From Pseudodonghicola flavimaris (GTDB taxonomy: Bacteria; Pseudomonadota; Alphaproteobacteria; Rhodobacterales; Rhodobacteraceae), in contig NZ_JASNJD010000019.1 of the NCBI RefSeq assembly GCF_030164425.1, positions 34,214-98,213 of the forward strand: a stretch of DNA of 64,000 bases, in the 5' to 3' direction. This document shows positions 8,951 to 16,666 of the stretch, piece by piece. Numbering within the stretch: position 1 is the first letter of the stretch; every line of letters starts with the position of its first letter. The position numbers and the translations under genes were made by a program. The notes below the pieces were generated by a model. That model searched no databases. It was not told the DNA's origin and was given only the letters and a program-made list of their open reading frames with translations.

Positions 8951-9662
8951 TCAGATCTTCAGGTGGTCCAGGATCCTGTCGCGGCTGCCGAGCTCGGCGG
9001 TGCCGGAATCGTCGATCTCGCCCAGTTTGAGAACCGCCCAGCGGTCGGCCACATCGAGGGCGAAGTTCAGGTTCTGCTCGACCAGCAGGATGGTGGTGCC
9101 GCGATCGTTTCGCTCGGCGCGCAGGGCAGTGGCGATCCGTGCGATCACCGTCGGCTGCAGCCCTTCCGAGATCTCGTCGATCAGAAGCAGATCGGGTTTC
9201 AGCATCAGCGCCCGGCTCAGGATCAGCATTTTCTGTTCGCCCCCCGACAGGGTTCCGGCCTTCTGTGTCAGCCGGTCGCGCAGGAAGGGGAAATGGACGA
9301 ACACATGCTCCAGCGCGGCTTCCAGCTCCCGGTCGGACCGCACCGCCAGGCGCAGGTTGTCGCGGATGCTGAGATCGGTGAACAGCGGCTGCTCCTGCGG
9401 CGCATAGCCGACGCCGGACTGGATCAGCACCTTGGGTGCCGCGCCGACGATGGAGCGGCCATCCAGCCGGATGTCGCCGCTGCGCGCCGGCACCAGCCCG
9501 AGGATGGTCTTGAGCAGGGTGGTCTTGCCCATGCCGTTCTTGCCCATCAGGGCGAAGATCTCGCCCTTGCGGACCGACAGCGATAGCGCCTTGATGATGG
9601 CGACCGGGCCATAGCCGCTGGTCACCCCTTCCAGCGCCAGCTTGGTCTCGGACTGCGGGGTG

Positions 9663-9670
<8 letters not shown>
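8951..9670 (-). CDS. ABC transporter ATP-binding protein (LivF/UrtE type)
   Basis: A 239-residue ATPase with Walker A GKNGMGKTT near residue 42, signature TLSGGEQKML, Walker B LLLIDEISEGLQP and the C-terminal LLVEQNLNFALDVADR phrase characteristic of the hydrophobic amino acid/urea/amide (HAAT) family. It is the last gene of the amide locus and overlaps the end of the LivM-LivG fusion by 8 bases. It should pair with the LivG half of the fusion to drive import. Confidence 0.92.
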
Positions 9671-11451
<1,781 letters not shown>

Positions 11452-11459
<8 letters not shown>

Positions 11460-12288
11460 GGGCGAAGCCTTTCGAACTGATGCGGAGGACCAGCGCGCTC
11501 AGCACGGCGACGGTGATGCCCCCGAGAATCGGGCTGATGAAGGTGGAGACGAGAACCTGCGCGCCGCCGAAGACCAGGCAGGCGATGGCCAGCGCGCCGA
11601 AGGAGGAGCCGGCCACCATCACCAGCATGAAGGAGCCGATCAGCCAGGAGACGCCCATGGTGGGGTCGACGCTGGTCAGGGGCGTCAGCAGGACGCCGGC
11701 CAGCGCGGTCAGCCCGGTGCCGATCATGAAGGTGAAAAGCCGGATGCGGGTGGTATCGAGACCCAGCGCGCGCGCCAGCGGCTCGTTCATGATGATCGCG
11801 CGGGCCGACAGGCCCAGCCGGGTGCCTTCCAGCAGAAAGGCAAAGCCGAGGCCGATCACCAGCGCCGCCGCCAGGGCGAAGATACGATAGAGCGAATAGC
11901 TGATGCCGAGGACATGAATGGTCCCGGAGAGCAGGTTCTCGGTGAATTGCACGTCGCGGCCGAACCACAGGGTGATCAGCTGGCCGATGACGATGCCCAG
12001 TCCCCAGGTGGCCAGGATCGCATCCAGCGGCCGGGCATAGAGCGGCCGCACGATCAGCCGCTCGGTCACGCCGCCCAGCACCGCTCCGGCGACGAAGGCC
12101 AGCGGCAGGGCCAGCCAGGGGTTCAGCCCAAGCCCGCCGGTCACCACGGCGCAATAGGCGCCCACGGTCAGCCAGGCGCCATGGGCGAAGTTGACGATTT
12201 CCAGCACGCCGAAAATGGCGAGAAGACCCGCCGAGACGATAAACAGGATGGCCGCAGTGGTCACGATATCCAGGAGAAGGGTCATCAC
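11452..12288 (-). CDS. ABC transporter permease (LivH/UrtB type)
   Basis: A 278-residue permease. It shows the family hallmark LLAIFGVLEIVNFAHGAWLTVGAY at residues 22-45 and about eight hydrophobic segments. Translation may start at the GTG at 12288 or the ATG at 12285; an AAAGGA ribosome site precedes both. That site is embedded in the right arm of a long inverted repeat in the gap after the binding-protein gene. The gene is part of the operon driven from the AmiR-controlled leader. Confidence 0.9.
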
Positions 12289-12350: not shown

Positions 12351-13499
12351 TCAGAGCTTGGGGCACTGTTCGCCCGGGTCGACATCCTTGAAGGTCTCGA
12401 CCACCACGACCGAGCCGTCTTCCTGCACCTGACCCAGGTACATGGTCAGCGGCGCATGGTGCTGCTTGCTCATCTGGATGGTGCCGCGCGGGCCGGTGAA
12501 GGACACCTCGGGAAGCACGTCCAGAACCGCCTTGGCGTCGGTGGAGCCGGCTTTCTCGACGGCGGCCTTATAGAGGTAGACGGCCTCGTACTGCGGCACC
12601 GACAGATCGTTGGGGGTGCGCAGCTCATCGCCGAACTTGGCTTTCATCGCGTCGAGGAAGGCCTTGTTCTCGGCGCTGTCGATGCCGGTGACGTAGGAGG
12701 CGGAGATCAGGATGCCGGCGGCATCCGCGCCCATGCTTTTCGCGGTGCCCTCATCCACGGCCAGGTTGGCGTAGGGCAGGTCGACACCGGCGCCGCGCAG
12801 CTGCTTGGTCAGGGTCACGTTGGGGGCGCCGCCCGCGGTGGAGGTGATCATCGCTTCGGCGCCGGAGGCCTTAAGCTTGGAGATGATCGCGGTCCAGTCG
12901 GTGCCGTCCATCGGCAGGTATTCCTCGCCGACGATCTCGCCACCGGTGCTTTCGACATAGCTGCGGGCGAAGTCCAGCATGCCGCGGCCGAAGGCATAGT
13001 CGCTGCCGATCAGGAAGTATTTCTTGGCGCCCTCTGCATTCAGGTAATCGACGATCGGCGGCACCTGCTGTTCCGGCACCCAGGCATCGACGAAGAGATA
13101 GGGGTTGCAGGACCGGCCTTCGTAGAAGGAGGTGTAGATGTAGGGCACGCGGCCACGCGACACGATCGGCAGGCCGGCGTTACGGGCGGCGCTGGTCTCC
13201 ATCGAGATCAGCACGTCGACTTCCTTCTGGAAGACCAGCGAGTCGAAGGCCTTCTGCGCGCCCGCCGCGCCGGAGGCGTCATCGGCGATCACCAGCTCCA
13301 GAGGCCGGCCCAGAACGCCGCCGGCGGCGTTGATCTCCTCGACCGCCAGCTCGGCCGATTGCACCACCGACGGGGCGACGACGCTGTTGGCGCCCGACAG
13401 CCCGACCGGCACGCCGATGCGAATGGGATCCTCTGCGGCGAAGGCCGCGCCGGCCAGCATGACGCTGGTCACGGTTGCGATGAGAGAGGGGAGTTTCAT
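12351..13499 (-). CDS. Amide/urea-type ABC transporter substrate-binding protein
   Basis: A 382-residue periplasmic protein with signal peptide MKLPSLIATVTSVMLAGAAF (cleavage near AFA-AED) and a type I periplasmic fold: IRIGVPVGLSGANS, AVEEINAAGGVLGRPLELV and YFLIGSDYAFGRGM are typical of the LivK/AmiC/FmdD group. It resembles the cytosolic sensor encoded upstream, implying both recognise related amides. The ATG at 13499 is chosen because it starts the signal peptide and has an AGGGA ribosome site; the longer frame is not supported. It is 49 bases downstream of the nitrilase gene. Confidence 0.92.
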   Translation of the reverse strand: MKLPSLIATVTSVMLAGAAFAAEDPIRIGVPVGLSGANSVVAPSVVQSAELAVEEINAAGGVLGRPLELVIADDASGAAGAQKAFDSLVFQKEVDVLISMETSAARNAGLPIVSRGRVPYIYTSFYEGRSCNPYLFVDAWVPEQQVPPIVDYLNAEGAKKYFLIGSDYAFGRGMLDFARSYVESTGGEIVGEEYLPMDGTDWTAIISKLKASGAEAMITSTAGGAPNVTLTKQLRGAGVDLPYANLAVDEGTAKSMGADAAGILISASYVTGIDSAENKAFLDAMKAKFGDELRTPNDLSVPQYEAVYLYKAAVEKAGSTDAKAVLDVLPEVSFTGPRGTIQMSKQHHAPLTMYLGQVQEDGSVVVVETFKDVDPGEQCPKL

Positions 13500-13548: not shown

Positions 13549-14394
13549 TCAGCTGTAGACGTCCGTGCGTCTGTCGCCGAATATATCGTTGAATTCATTC
13601 AGTTTTCGCTTGGCCGGGACATCGGCCGGGGTGATCTGCGCATAGAGGATGTCTTCGTCCTCACGGCTGGCGGGGCCAGCCAGCGGCCAGCCGGTGGCAT
13701 CGATGATCAGGCTCTGGCCGATGAAGGGCTGGCCGCGCTCGGTGCCGACCCGGTCGGCGCAGGCGATGAACAGCCCGTTGGAATGCGCGGCCGCCTTGTG
13801 CAGGATGTTCGACATCGCTTCGGTCTGGGGATCCTGGTCCGGCATCGGCACCCAGTTGGTGGGCACGCAGATCACCTCGGCCCCATTTATCGCCAGCTGG
13901 CGGAAGGTCTCGGGGAACCAGCCGTCATAGCAGATGGCGATGCCGATCTTGCCCAGCGGCGTGTCGAAGACCGGCAGCCCCAGGTCGCCTTTCCTGAAAA
14001 ACAGGTTCTCCCGATACCACAGGTGCATCTTGCGATAGGTGCCGATGTAGCCCTCCGGCCCGCAGAGCATGGCGGAGTTGTAGAAGCCGCCATCGGCGGC
14101 CTCGGCCAGCCCCGAGACGATGTGGATGCCGAGTTCGGCCGCAAGGGCGATCAGCCGCTGCGCGCTGATACCCTCCGGGATCGGTTGCGCCAGATCGGCC
14201 AGCTCTTCGGCGCTGTCAAAGACATAGCCGCTGTCGGCCAGTTCCGGCAGAACGATCAGCCGTGCCCCATTGGCATGGGCCTGGCGCACGCGGGTTTCGA
14301 TGGCCTCCAGATTGGCCGCGAGTTCGCCGATCTTCGGTTCGAACTGGATGCAGGCGATGGTTACGGGGGCGGAATGATCAGTCTCAGGGGGCAC
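13549..14394 (-). CDS. Carbon-nitrogen hydrolase (nitrilase superfamily)
   Basis: A 281-residue cytoplasmic hydrolase with the full nitrilase catalytic triad: Glu51 in VLPEL, Lys122 in YRKMHLW and Cys155 in AICYDGWFPE. The superfamily hydrolyses nitriles, aliphatic amides or N-carbamoyl compounds; here the context (AmiC, AmiR, amide-type transporter) favours an amide. I start it at the GTG at 14394, which follows GGAG by 6 bases; the longer frame runs through the terminator hairpin and is rejected. The gene is the first behind the antitermination leader, so its expression should depend on inducer. The exact substrate is unknown. Confidence 0.88.
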   Translation of the reverse strand: MPPETDHSAPVTIACIQFEPKIGELAANLEAIETRVRQAHANGARLIVLPELADSGYVFDSAEELADLAQPIPEGISAQRLIALAAELGIHIVSGLAEAADGGFYNSAMLCGPEGYIGTYRKMHLWYRENLFFRKGDLGLPVFDTPLGKIGIAICYDGWFPETFRQLAINGAEVICVPTNWVPMPDQDPQTEAMSNILHKAAAHSNGLFIACADRVGTERGQPFIGQSLIIDATGWPLAGPASREDEDILYAQITPADVPAKRKLNEFNDIFGDRRTDVYS

Positions 14395-14411
14395 GTCGGT
14401 CTCCAAAACGC

Positions 14412-14454
14412 AAAAAGCCCCCGCCCACGGTCGAAGACCGCGGTATCGGGGGCT
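14412..14454 (-). terminator. Intrinsic terminator in the leader of the nitrilase operon (attenuator)
   Basis: On the minus strand an 8-bp stem, agcccccg/cgggggct in plus-strand terms (14416-14423 and 14447-14454), encloses an inner 5-bp hairpin (cggtc gaa gaccg, 14428-14440), and is followed by a U-run (TTTTTG, 14416-14411). It lies 18-60 bases before the nitrilase GTG and 18 bases after the two hexaloop hairpins. A terminator placed inside a 5-prime leader, directly below an ANTAR regulator gene, is the classical AmiR/NasR antitermination arrangement. Confidence 0.85.
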
Positions 14455-14472
14455 GCATAGCCGGGATGTAGA

Positions 14473-14503
14473 GCGGCAACCTTGCCGCAGAGCAATCCTG
14501 CTC
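14473..14503 (-). ncRNA. Tandem hexaloop hairpins, predicted ANTAR (AmiR) RNA target
   Basis: Minus-strand reading gives two adjacent hairpins one base apart. The first, 14503-14490, has stem GAGC/GCTC and loop AGGAUU. The second, 14488-14473, has stem GCGGC/GCCGC and loop AAGGUU. Known ANTAR targets are two hairpins with six-base loops carrying A at position 1 and G at position 4. The second loop fits exactly; the first has A1 but A instead of G at position 4. They sit just upstream of the leader terminator, where AmiR binding would favour read-through. Confidence 0.75.
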
Positions 14504-14611
14504 GTCGCCCCAAAGCTGTCACGCGGAGCGATCCGGTTCAATTTCAATATTTAGGCAAATGCACGATTTTTCAGCTCTATTTTTCAGCGCTCGTGAAACA
14601 TCGGCGCCGTA

Positions 14612-15226
14612 TCAGCGCTTCAGGCCCAACCGGCGCATGGTCTCATGCGCGGCGATCAGGTCCTCGGCGATGGCGGCCATGGTGATCCGCTCCGAGGTCG
14701 CCTGATCGCGCAGCAGGCGATAGGCGGCATCCTCCTCCAGCCCCTGTTCGTCGACCAGCAGGCGGATCGCCCGATCGACCAGCCGCCGGCCCTTCAGCGT
14801 GTCTTCCAGTTTGCGCACCTTGGCCGAAAGCCGCGCCTCGTAACCGTGTCGATAGCGGGCCAGGGTGAACTGGGTCAGGATGCCCAGCGGGCGCAGCGGC
14901 TTGCTCATCACCCCATGGGCGTTGAGATCGTAGATCGCGCGCAGCGAGGTCGGGCTTTCATAGGTGACGACGGCGATGATCGCCGGATCGTGGCCTTCGA
15001 AGACCTGAACCGCCTGATCGGTCGCGGTATCCTCGACGCTGACAAAGACGGTATCGGTGCCTTCGGGCAGCACGGCGGGCAGCGGCCAGGCGGCTTTCAC
15101 CTCGCAGCCGAGCCGGCGCAGCTGGCCGATCAGAACCTCGCCATCCTCGTCGCGGGGATGGATCACCAGCACCCGCGCCCGACGCAGATCCTCGAGTATG
15201 CGGCGGGGGTGCCCCTTCATGCCCAT
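14612..15226 (-). CDS. amiR: AmiR-like ANTAR-domain transcription antiterminator
   Basis: A 204-residue protein: an N-terminal receiver-like domain (RVLVIHPRDEDGEVLIGQLRRLGC..., lacking an obvious phospho-acceptor site), a coiled-coil linker near residues 125-145, and a C-terminal ANTAR domain (KLEDTLKGRRLVDRAIRLLV through AAIAEDLIAAHETM). In Pseudomonas AmiR binds leader RNA and prevents termination, and is held inactive by AmiC until amide is bound. The gene overlaps the amiC-like gene by 10 bases, and its RNA target lies about 110 bases below its stop. Phosphorylation-independent control by AmiC is inferred from the family. Confidence 0.9.
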   Translation of the reverse strand: MGMKGHPRRILEDLRRARVLVIHPRDEDGEVLIGQLRRLGCEVKAAWPLPAVLPEGTDTVFVSVEDTATDQAVQVFEGHDPAIIAVVTYESPTSLRAIYDLNAHGVMSKPLRPLGILTQFTLARYRHGYEARLSAKVRKLEDTLKGRRLVDRAIRLLVDEQGLEEDAAYRLLRDQATSERITMAAIAEDLIAAHETMRRLGLKR

Positions 15227-16365
15227 TCCCGCAAGGACGGCTCGTCGAACCGGGTGGTGGCCAGGTAGGGATCGGGATGCACCGGGCTGGCGCCCTCCCA
15301 GACGATGTCGAACAGCCCGTCGGGCCGCGCCACGCCGATGCGCGGCGTCAGCCAGGTGTGCCGGGTCTCCGGGTCGACGTGAATCCGGCCGCCGGGAGCA
15401 TCGAATTCCAGCCCCAGAACCTCCTGTCCGATGCGGCGGGTGTCCATGGTGCCGACCCGTTCCAGCGCCCGCGCGAAGAGATGCACCTGATTATAGGCCG
15501 GCTCGGACCAGACGCTGGTCACCGCCGATGCGCCGAAGCGCGCCTTGTAGGCCGTGACGAAGGCCCGGTTGGTGGCGGTGTCGAGGGTCTGGAAGTAGCT
15601 GGCCGCGAGGATATGGCCGGCGCATTTCTCCGGCCCGATGCGGGCGATCTCGCCCTCGGCCATGGTCAGGCTGGCGATCGGGCAGCGGCTGCGGTCGATC
15701 CCCGCCGCGTCGTAGAGCGTGTAGAAGGCCTGTGCCGAGGTGCCGACGAGAGTCGAGAACACCGCGTCGGGGCGTTTTTCCTCGATCTCGCGGATCAGGG
15801 CGATTTCCTCCGCCGCTGTGGCGCCCAGTGGCAGGTAGTGTTCGGCGACGGTCTCTCCACCGCGGGCCTCGATCAGGTCGCGCATGATCCGGTTGGATTC
15901 CCGCGGGTAGATATAGTCGGACCCGACGAAGACGATGCGGCCGCCGTAGCTTTGCAGCAGGTAATCGGCCAGCGGCAGGCACAGCTGGTTCGGCGTGGCT
16001 CCGGTATAGATCAGGTTTTCGCAATATTCGAAGCCCTCGTACATCGAGGGGTAGAACAGCAGCCCGTTGTGGCGTTCGACCACCGGCAGCACGGTCTTGC
16101 GGCTGCCCGACATCGAACAGCCGAAGATCACGTCCAGCTCCTCCTCGGACAGCATCTGCCGGGCCAGCATGCGATAGGCGTCGTTGTCCGATCCCGGGTC
16201 GCGGGCGATGGGAACGATGGGTCGCCCGAGAATCCCGCCCGAGGCGTTGATCTCGTCGATCGCCAGGACGGTACCGTTGTAATGCTCGGTTTCGGTGACG
16301 GCGGTGGTCCCGCTGCGCGAAAAGAGCACCCCGGCTCTCCAGCCGTCCCGTGCGGATGGGCTCAT
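15217..16365 (-). CDS. amiC: AmiC-like amide sensor / negative regulator
   Basis: A 382-residue protein of the type I periplasmic-binding fold but without a signal peptide, so cytoplasmic. Phrases such as VLPVVERHNGLLFYPSMYEG, IYTGATPNQLCLPLADYLL and VFVGSDYIYPRESNRIMRDL agree closely with my memory of Pseudomonas aeruginosa AmiC, the acetamide sensor that sequesters AmiR. Start ATG at 16365 has GAGG upstream and removes a non-AmiC N-terminal extension. It overlaps amiR by 10 bases, so sensor and antiterminator are likely co-translated as a complex. Confidence 0.93.
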   Translation of the reverse strand: MSPSARDGWRAGVLFSRSGTTAVTETEHYNGTVLAIDEINASGGILGRPIVPIARDPGSDNDAYRMLARQMLSEEELDVIFGCSMSGSRKTVLPVVERHNGLLFYPSMYEGFEYCENLIYTGATPNQLCLPLADYLLQSYGGRIVFVGSDYIYPRESNRIMRDLIEARGGETVAEHYLPLGATAAEEIALIREIEEKRPDAVFSTLVGTSAQAFYTLYDAAGIDRSRCPIASLTMAEGEIARIGPEKCAGHILAASYFQTLDTATNRAFVTAYKARFGASAVTSVWSEPAYNQVHLFARALERVGTMDTRRIGQEVLGLEFDAPGGRIHVDPETRHTWLTPRIGVARPDGLFDIVWEGASPVHPDPYLATTRFDEPSLREWA

Positions 16366-16543: not shown

Positions 16544-16583
16544 AAAAAACAAACACTCCCGAAGGAGGCCTTCGGGAGTGTTT
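16544..16583 (-). terminator. Rho-independent terminator of the tRNA-fMet gene
   Basis: A perfect 15-bp stem (16551-16565 with 16569-16583) and a 3-base loop, followed on the minus strand by GUUUUUU (16550-16544). It begins 7 bases after the tRNA 3-prime end and should end that transcript. Confidence 0.92.
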
Positions 16584-16589
16584 TATCGT

Positions 16590-16666
<77 letters not shown>

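Follow-up and report, generated by a model that had tools for sequence, protein, structure and literature searches.

A predicted AmiC–AmiR antitermination leader with a terminator-overlapping hairpin before a nitrilase and transporter operon

Genes and leader elements at the locus

The window analysed here, a stretch of 64,000 nucleotides from Pseudodonghicola flavimaris, carries on its minus strand an amiC–amiR pair, a leader, a nitrilase-type gene and four transporter genes. The product of amiC (15217–16365), an AmiC-like ligand sensor, scored 307 bits against Pseudomonas aeruginosa AmiC 1qnl and 306.9 bits against 1pea (365 residues; Peripla_BP_5 family); by eye its N-terminus has no obvious signal peptide, unlike that of the downstream binding protein. 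The product of amiR (14612–15226) matched AmiR chain 1qo0_D at E 1.1e-23 and exceeded the cutoffs of both the AmiR_N (120.5 bits) and the ANTAR (49.9 bits) Pfam models which, with the AmiC-type sensor adjoining, places the pair by sequence in the AmiC–AmiR system. A tRNA gene and a strong terminator-like hairpin lie upstream of amiC on the same strand (window 16551–16666), and this hairpin likely separates amiC from upstream transcription.

A gap of 217 nt divides amiR from the gene for a nitrilase-superfamily hydrolase (13549–14394, with a GTG start at 14394; CN_hydrolase, 182.5 bits), for which no NCBIfam model reached its cutoff and the closest solved chain was PH0642 (1j31). From knowledge of the family, we take Glu51, Lys122 and Cys155, at positions read in the sequence, as its candidate catalytic triad. 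The genes that follow on the same strand encode a periplasmic substrate-binding protein (12351–13499; Peripla_BP_6, 287.5 bits), a UrtB-like permease (11452–12288; TIGR03409, 176 bits, below the cutoff of 250.3), a fused UrtC–UrtD-like permease and ATPase (9663–11459; TIGR03411, 206.5 bits, and TIGR03408, 188.7 bits, both below cutoff) and a UrtE-like ATPase (8951–9670; TIGR03410, 215.1 bits, below the cutoff of 285.8). As none of the four transporter proteins reached an NCBIfam equivalog cutoff with the Urt models, they were not assigned to the UrtABCDE urea transporter; judged by sequence, theirs is a HAAT transporter related to Urt. An earlier note on this DNA had placed an ANTAR protein and its AmiC-like sensor directly upstream of the leader, and a nitrilase-superfamily hydrolase with transporter genes behind it; the profile matches bear out both, the transporter genes being of the HAAT/urea type.

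Read 5′ to 3′ on the minus strand, the leader consists of a promoter-like site, hairpins 1 and 2, a linker, hairpin 3, a terminator with its U-tract, and a GGAG. The predicted promoter-like site TTGAAC-17-CAGCTT (14513–14541) contains a conserved −35-like TTGAAC at 14536–14541; a generic consensus promoter scan of the leader called no promoter. Hairpin 1 (GAGC-AGGATT-GCTC, loop AGGAUU; 14490–14503), recognized by pairing in the leader alignment, and hairpin 2 (GCGGC-AAGGTT-GCCGC, loop AAGGUU; 14473–14488), recognized by loop code and pairing, are the two adjacent six-base-loop hairpins that the earlier note had described. A 10-nt linker, UCUACAUCCC (14463–14472), with a column-conserved ACAU at 14466–14469, leads to hairpin 3 (GGCU-AUGC-AGCC; 14451–14462), which that note had overlooked, as it had the TTGAAC. 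The intrinsic terminator and U-tract (14412–14454; stem 14416–14454, U-tract 14412–14416) end before the nitrilase start, as previously claimed.

Hairpin 3 and the 5′ arm of the terminator overlap by 4 nt: the AGCC that forms the base of the terminator stem can partner either with the GGCU upstream, giving hairpin 3, or with a second GGCU immediately ahead of the U-tract, giving the terminator. Because AGCC is common to both stems, hairpin 3 and the terminator are mutually exclusive at the base adjoining the U-tract. Only 7 bases lie between the U-tract and GGAG, the nitrilase gene's ribosome-binding site (14401–14404, identified from sequence and present in most rows of alignment A4), so that a transcript started at any promoter further upstream has to cross the terminator. 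The leader folded better than 200 of 200 shuffles (z −2.78).

Leader conservation and the P1 and P2 hairpins

An AmiR-alignment scan of 84,980 species genomes, which used two peptide patterns and reached close relatives only, gave 32 loci, presumably all alphaproteobacterial to judge by their record titles (ten titled MAG); L022, L027 and L031 among them are L005–L007 of the family search. A nitrilase orthologue (54–89% identity) came directly after amiR at 32 of 32 loci. In A2, an unfitted MAFFT alignment of 33 leaders in which hairpin 1 is visibly misaligned in several rows, the paired cells amounted to 89.7% for hairpin 1, 90.9% for hairpin 2, 100% for hairpin 3, and 97.7% and 86.2% for the outer and inner terminator stems. 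Two-sided changes were seen at three pairs of hairpin 1 (where some rows are misaligned) and three of the terminator outer stem. None of 500 shuffles of A2 equalled the alignment in percentage of cells paired, in cells changed on both sides or in covariation score; two other measures were reached by 4 and 15 of 500 shuffles for hairpins 1–3, and by 1 and 25 with the terminator included. Slid-partner controls paired in 30–52% of cells. One control ran contrary to this: for hairpins 1–3 alone a +3 slide scored 0.137 for covariation versus 0.111, though with 51.7% of cells paired. As hairpin 3 is invariant, it shows conservation without covariation.

In 56 sources, together 704,052 bases, the covariance model R1, built from 21 leaders and covering hairpins 1 and 2 and the terminator, matched 58 sites (E up to 0.02), with one or more per source; among them are the 21 from which it was built. 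In the alignment of these sites 95.9% of cells were paired, a figure that leans towards the model because the alignment was fitted to R1. The 38 alpha-type sites are those of the window, the 32 loci, three genomes of the same class and two Rhizobiaceae plasmids; the other 20 come from genomes of the family of genome G636 and from a Comamonas antarctica plasmid (L154), and we infer the name Burkholderia-type for them from the L154 leader beside amiR, which is nearly the same as that of G636. In 48 of 54 leaders TTGA stood 76–103 nt 5′ of hairpin 3, and a TANANT −10 lay 17 nt from TTGA in 14 of 15 Burkholderia-type nitrilase leaders.

Both GGCU and AGCC of hairpin 3 were intact at 58 of 58 sites, although the upstream GGCU is not part of the terminator. 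The minimum-energy fold contained the terminator in 53 of 54 leaders (a set that counts one genome twice, as L007 and L031), the exception, L026, being an incomplete leader sequence. Forcing hairpin 3 cost 3.2–10.6 kcal/mol in those 53 (mean over all 54, 6.1 kcal/mol), which could be within reach of a bound protein; the energetics suggest that the switch would be off by default and turned on by a protein.

Published ANTAR targets, in the available text of PMC3369931, have two hexaloops with A1 and G4, of which P2 overlaps the terminator; there the P1–P2 linker of eut genes is 5–12 nt, and changing A1 of P2 in the eut system lowered induction. We counted six-base loops and set aside other lengths (4 of 38 for hairpin 1, and 3 of 58 each for hairpins 2 and 3). 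Alpha-type hairpin 1 loops had A1 in 31 of 34 and G4 in 2 of 34; hairpin 2 had A1 in 53 of 55 and G4 in 43 of 55, with A in place of G4 in 12; and hairpin 3 had U1, not A1, in 55 of 55, with G4 in 53. Positions 1 and 6 were complementary in nearly all loops of hairpins 2 and 3. The hairpin 1 stem beat its own shuffles at p 0.05, in single sequences, at 7 of 38 alpha-type and 11 of 20 Burkholderia-type sites; at the remaining 31 alpha-type sites it was not longer than in shuffles, and there it rests on comparison. In its place, the Burkholderia-type sites have a long, differently built stem (11 of 20), a 6-bp stem (two) or none longer than 3 bp (seven).

From these sequence comparisons, hairpins 2 and 3 are the core, as P1 and P2, and hairpin 1, which fails the loop code and is absent or differently built in the Burkholderia-type group, is auxiliary. 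The earlier note had both loops of hairpins 1 and 2 obeying the ANTAR code and the two together forming the AmiR-binding pair; hairpin 1, mostly without G4, has A1 but A4 in the window, neither hairpin overlaps the terminator, and neither claim was supported. Hairpins 2 and 3, by comparison, are two small hairpins whose 10-nt linker is within the roughly 5–12 nt of ANTAR dual hairpins (5–12 nt in 49 of 54 leaders and longer in five, the automatic stem register being off in a few rows), and P2 overlaps the intrinsic terminator through AGCC. A1 and G4 were not found together in both six-base loops, given U1 throughout P2, and we therefore call the leader a variant that would work like an ANTAR dual-hairpin antiterminator.

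Within the linker between hairpins 2 and 3, every column of the unpaired ACAU was 93–98% conserved over the 58 sites; neighbouring linker letters vary.

Distribution, gene orders and the AmiR residue

R1 found one site in the window's own genome, where the next match was at E 1.17 (150 of 4,458 first-look candidates scored) and for that reason we claim no regulon. A class-wide search of 385 genomes matched the own genome only, a result that says little on absence since the filters were stricter and at most ten candidates were scored per genome. In 15 genomes of the Rhodobacter-type family with AmiR, R1 gave four strong matches and two weak ones (G343, E 0.024; G013, E 0.037), the latter having, by eye, no GGCU–AGCC hairpin before the terminator. 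Across 249 genomes of the G636 family, R1 occurred in 17, an AmiR-like match (E up to 1e-15) in 36 and both in 16 (one-sided Fisher p 1.8e-14, kinship ignored). The 17th genome, G721, was without an AmiR-like match, and its site (L111) without GGCU–AGCC; we think this match a false positive but kept it in the statistics. A laxer R1 search of the family added G711 (E 0.0015).

The gene order in that family differed. A nitrilase lay behind the element at 15 of its 18 sites, the rest being two sites of G636 and L111, and in every one of the 16 genomes measured (the 15 and G711) amiR was found on the strand of the leader, 6.8–8.2 kb downstream of it. Two stretches inspected had the order nitrilase, binding protein, UrtB, UrtCD, UrtE, AmiC, AmiR; with amiC–amiR distal behind the leader operon, AmiR would control its own expression there. 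A third order, amiC–amiR–leader–transporter–nitrilase, was found in G636 (L086) and L154. An automatic terminator search beside 23 AmiRs gave candidates at two only.

L154 has a second R1 site (982–1086) 14 nt before an annotated urease gene, and L086 has one (1333–1437) before a gene that resembles urease by its reading frames; on each replicon the urease-preceding leader would be a second target besides the amiR–transporter–nitrilase operon. Among plasmid records, six of seven had amiC–amiR, ABC genes and a nitrilase-type hydrolase together. On an Agrobacterium vitis plasmid (L151, 108–4937) the operon has annotated genes for nitrile hydratase, amidase and phenylacetaldoxime dehydratase in its vicinity, which hint at a nitrile–amide route, and the Rhizobium leguminosarum operon has an additional amidase-family gene behind the last ATPase gene (L150, 15176–16336).

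Met172 of EutV is described as essential (available text of PMC3369931 and PMC8934654). The window AmiR has Thr177 at this position in alignment A6, in which Thr or Ser occurred in 27 of 29 AmiRs, those beside R1-type leaders, and Met in L083 and the paralogue L084. A wider reading of this residue in two families covered all 17 AmiR places of one and 30 of 48 of the other (those with the locus). Thr was present in all 20 AmiRs tied to R1-positive genomes and in that of G711 (further copies in some R1-positive genomes are outside the count), while the 26 other AmiRs comprised 23 with Met (L131 by eye), two with Gln (L009 and L010, by eye) and one unreadable (L138). The Thr type is possibly a single clade, so that its match to the leader may be one correlated change. 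Leaders beside the amiR genes of R. johnstonii and A. fabrum, which encode AmiRs only 37% like that of the window, have GGC-AAGG[A/G]U-GCC before the terminator, with a loop closable by A1–U6, which speaks against a simple loop-size explanation. The proposal that Thr-for-Met co-evolved with closable loops is weakened by these leaders and by the possible single Thr clade.

Predicted mechanism, rival readings and known systems

Antitermination by AmiC–AmiR is an established mechanism, and we consider it likely that this leader terminates by default and is read through once AmiR, probably released from AmiC by an amide-type ligand, has bound hairpins 2 and 3. Transcription would start just 5′ of hairpin 1. 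Without inducer, AGCC would pair with the downstream GGCU and RNA polymerase would stop; an inducer, probably an amide-type ligand, would likely free AmiR from AmiC, and AmiR would dock on hairpin 2 first and hairpin 3 second, with hairpin 1 serving as a structural helper at the 5′ end and not as a recognition loop. AGCC would now pair with the upstream GGCU, which would cost the terminator the four pairs at its base and let transcription run on into the nitrilase and transporter genes. This mechanism is supported by the protein matches, the nitrilase linkage, the intact GGCU and AGCC, the fold energetics and the co-occurrence with AmiR, while the 10-nt linker and the P2–terminator overlap fit the published ANTAR model. 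Counting against it are U1 in P2, the A for G4 in P1 loops, Thr at the EutV Met172 position, the invariance of hairpin 3, the +3 slide score, the empty generic promoter scan and G721. The antitermination switch proposed in the earlier note survives as a prediction, backed by proteins, RNA, conservation and co-occurrence, with its antiterminator misplaced.

Other readings of the leader fared less well. AmiR might sit on hairpins 1 and 2 and block a separate downstream terminator through contact with RNA polymerase or sterically, with no competing hairpin; in alpha-type leaders these hairpins are neighbours that are conserved together and show two-sided changes, and in L049 and L051 a hairpin 1 is kept 11 nt away. 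The scarcity of G4 in hairpin 1 and the seven Burkholderia-type sites with no adjacent stem longer than 3 bp led us to reject the two as the binding pair, the invariance of GGCU would go unexplained, and we hold this reading to be unlikely. It is less probable still that the stem-loop is only an amiCR terminator or constitutive attenuator, with the nitrilase under other control, such as a nitrogen-limitation regulator acting at the promoter. The stem-loop is a good terminator and closes a gene pair, as that reading would have it, but the leader stays with its target genes and not with amiR, remaining at the nitrilase where amiC–amiR is about 7–8 kb downstream, which argues against a plain amiCR terminator; there is also no promoter space behind the stem-loop, the conserved hairpin 3 competes with the terminator, and the element co-occurs with AmiR. 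We give marginally less credence again to a small-molecule riboswitch or translational element, with AmiR acting elsewhere: strong conservation that includes the unpaired ACAU would agree with it, but Rfam covariance models gave no match on the leader, either at the gathering threshold or with E relaxed to 5, the ribosome-binding site lies 3′ of the U-tract and outside the hairpins, and the element tracks with AmiR.

Compared with known systems, antitermination through hairpins 2 and 3 would resemble the AmiC–AmiR control of amiE in P. aeruginosa in its AmiC sensor, AmiR ANTAR protein and terminator leader before an amide hydrolase (in part from the available text of PMC3369931). It differs in that amiC–amiR comes first here, with the leader between amiR and nitrilase, and in its three hairpins, HAAT-type ABC transporter and Thr for Met in the ANTAR loop; L083 has the Pseudomonas order, hydrolase first and amiC–amiR later. 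Like the Enterococcus faecalis EutV RNAs, as far as the available portions of PMC3369931 and PMC8934654 describe them, the leader has A1/G4 in P1, a P2 over the terminator 5′ arm and a linker in their range; unlike them it has a U-initial P2 loop, loops complementary at positions 1 and 6 and an additional upstream hairpin, and an AmiC ligand sensor takes the place of phosphorylation. A Klebsiella plasmid with amiC–amiR adjoining amidase and ABC genes is already in print (PMC13209695, available in part), sharing with our locus the grouping of amiC, amiR, hydrolase and ABC genes. Its AmiR is distant, with 32.6% identity for Klebsiella record H69, and R1 had no match at E up to 1 in the H69 stretch (L153). 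The earlier note's view that the layout is unlike the Pseudomonas ami operon holds, but such a layout is not rare, given this plasmid and the six plasmid records. NasT/NasS leaders of alphaproteobacteria likewise use ANTAR antitermination freed from a binding-protein partner but, in the accessible part of PMC6759348, have a nitrate signal and nitrate or denitrification genes.

Our searches of the open-access literature found no paper linking an ANTAR domain with a nitrilase, nor AmiR and AmiC with a nitrilase and antiterminator. To our knowledge, the following are new: where the antiterminator sits in this leader, its auxiliary hairpin, a P2 loop with U1, the linker with ACAU, an ANTAR domain of the Thr type, three different operon orders and the site before urease. 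Comparable loci may already be among the hit tables of PMC3369931, in whose available text the predicted ANTAR targets include urea transporter genes. A regulator known mainly from one species becomes a system of 58 comparable leaders with a covariance model, and with the antiterminator pinpointed the mutations to test are defined. Two published features of ANTAR–RNA recognition are also questioned, A at P2 loop position 1 and methionine at the EutV-172 position.

More tentatively, and with the odds against it, AmiRs of the Thr/Ser type together with the three-hairpin leader, its 1–6-closable loops (A–U in P1, U–A in P2) and fixed ACAU might constitute a distinct ANTAR–RNA pairing that is insulated from the cell's own Met-type paralogue and, in betaproteobacteria, makes up amide/urease regulons. 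If the Thr-type pair were orthogonal to that paralogue, the two would form a naturally occurring set of amide-responsive RNA switches insulated from each other.

The window's own genome has a second AmiC–AmiR pair (G000:C57:166857–167438; L020, L084), whose AmiR is 35–36% identical and has a Met-type ANTAR domain. Behind it lie a terminator-bearing leader and a Urt-like transporter with a CN-hydrolase; R1 had no match up to E 10 at this locus except fragments. A third ANTAR protein is encoded at G000:C55:194269–194427 (L001, L085); it is perhaps NasT-like, the next reading frame resembling, by eye, a NasS/NrtA-type binding protein.
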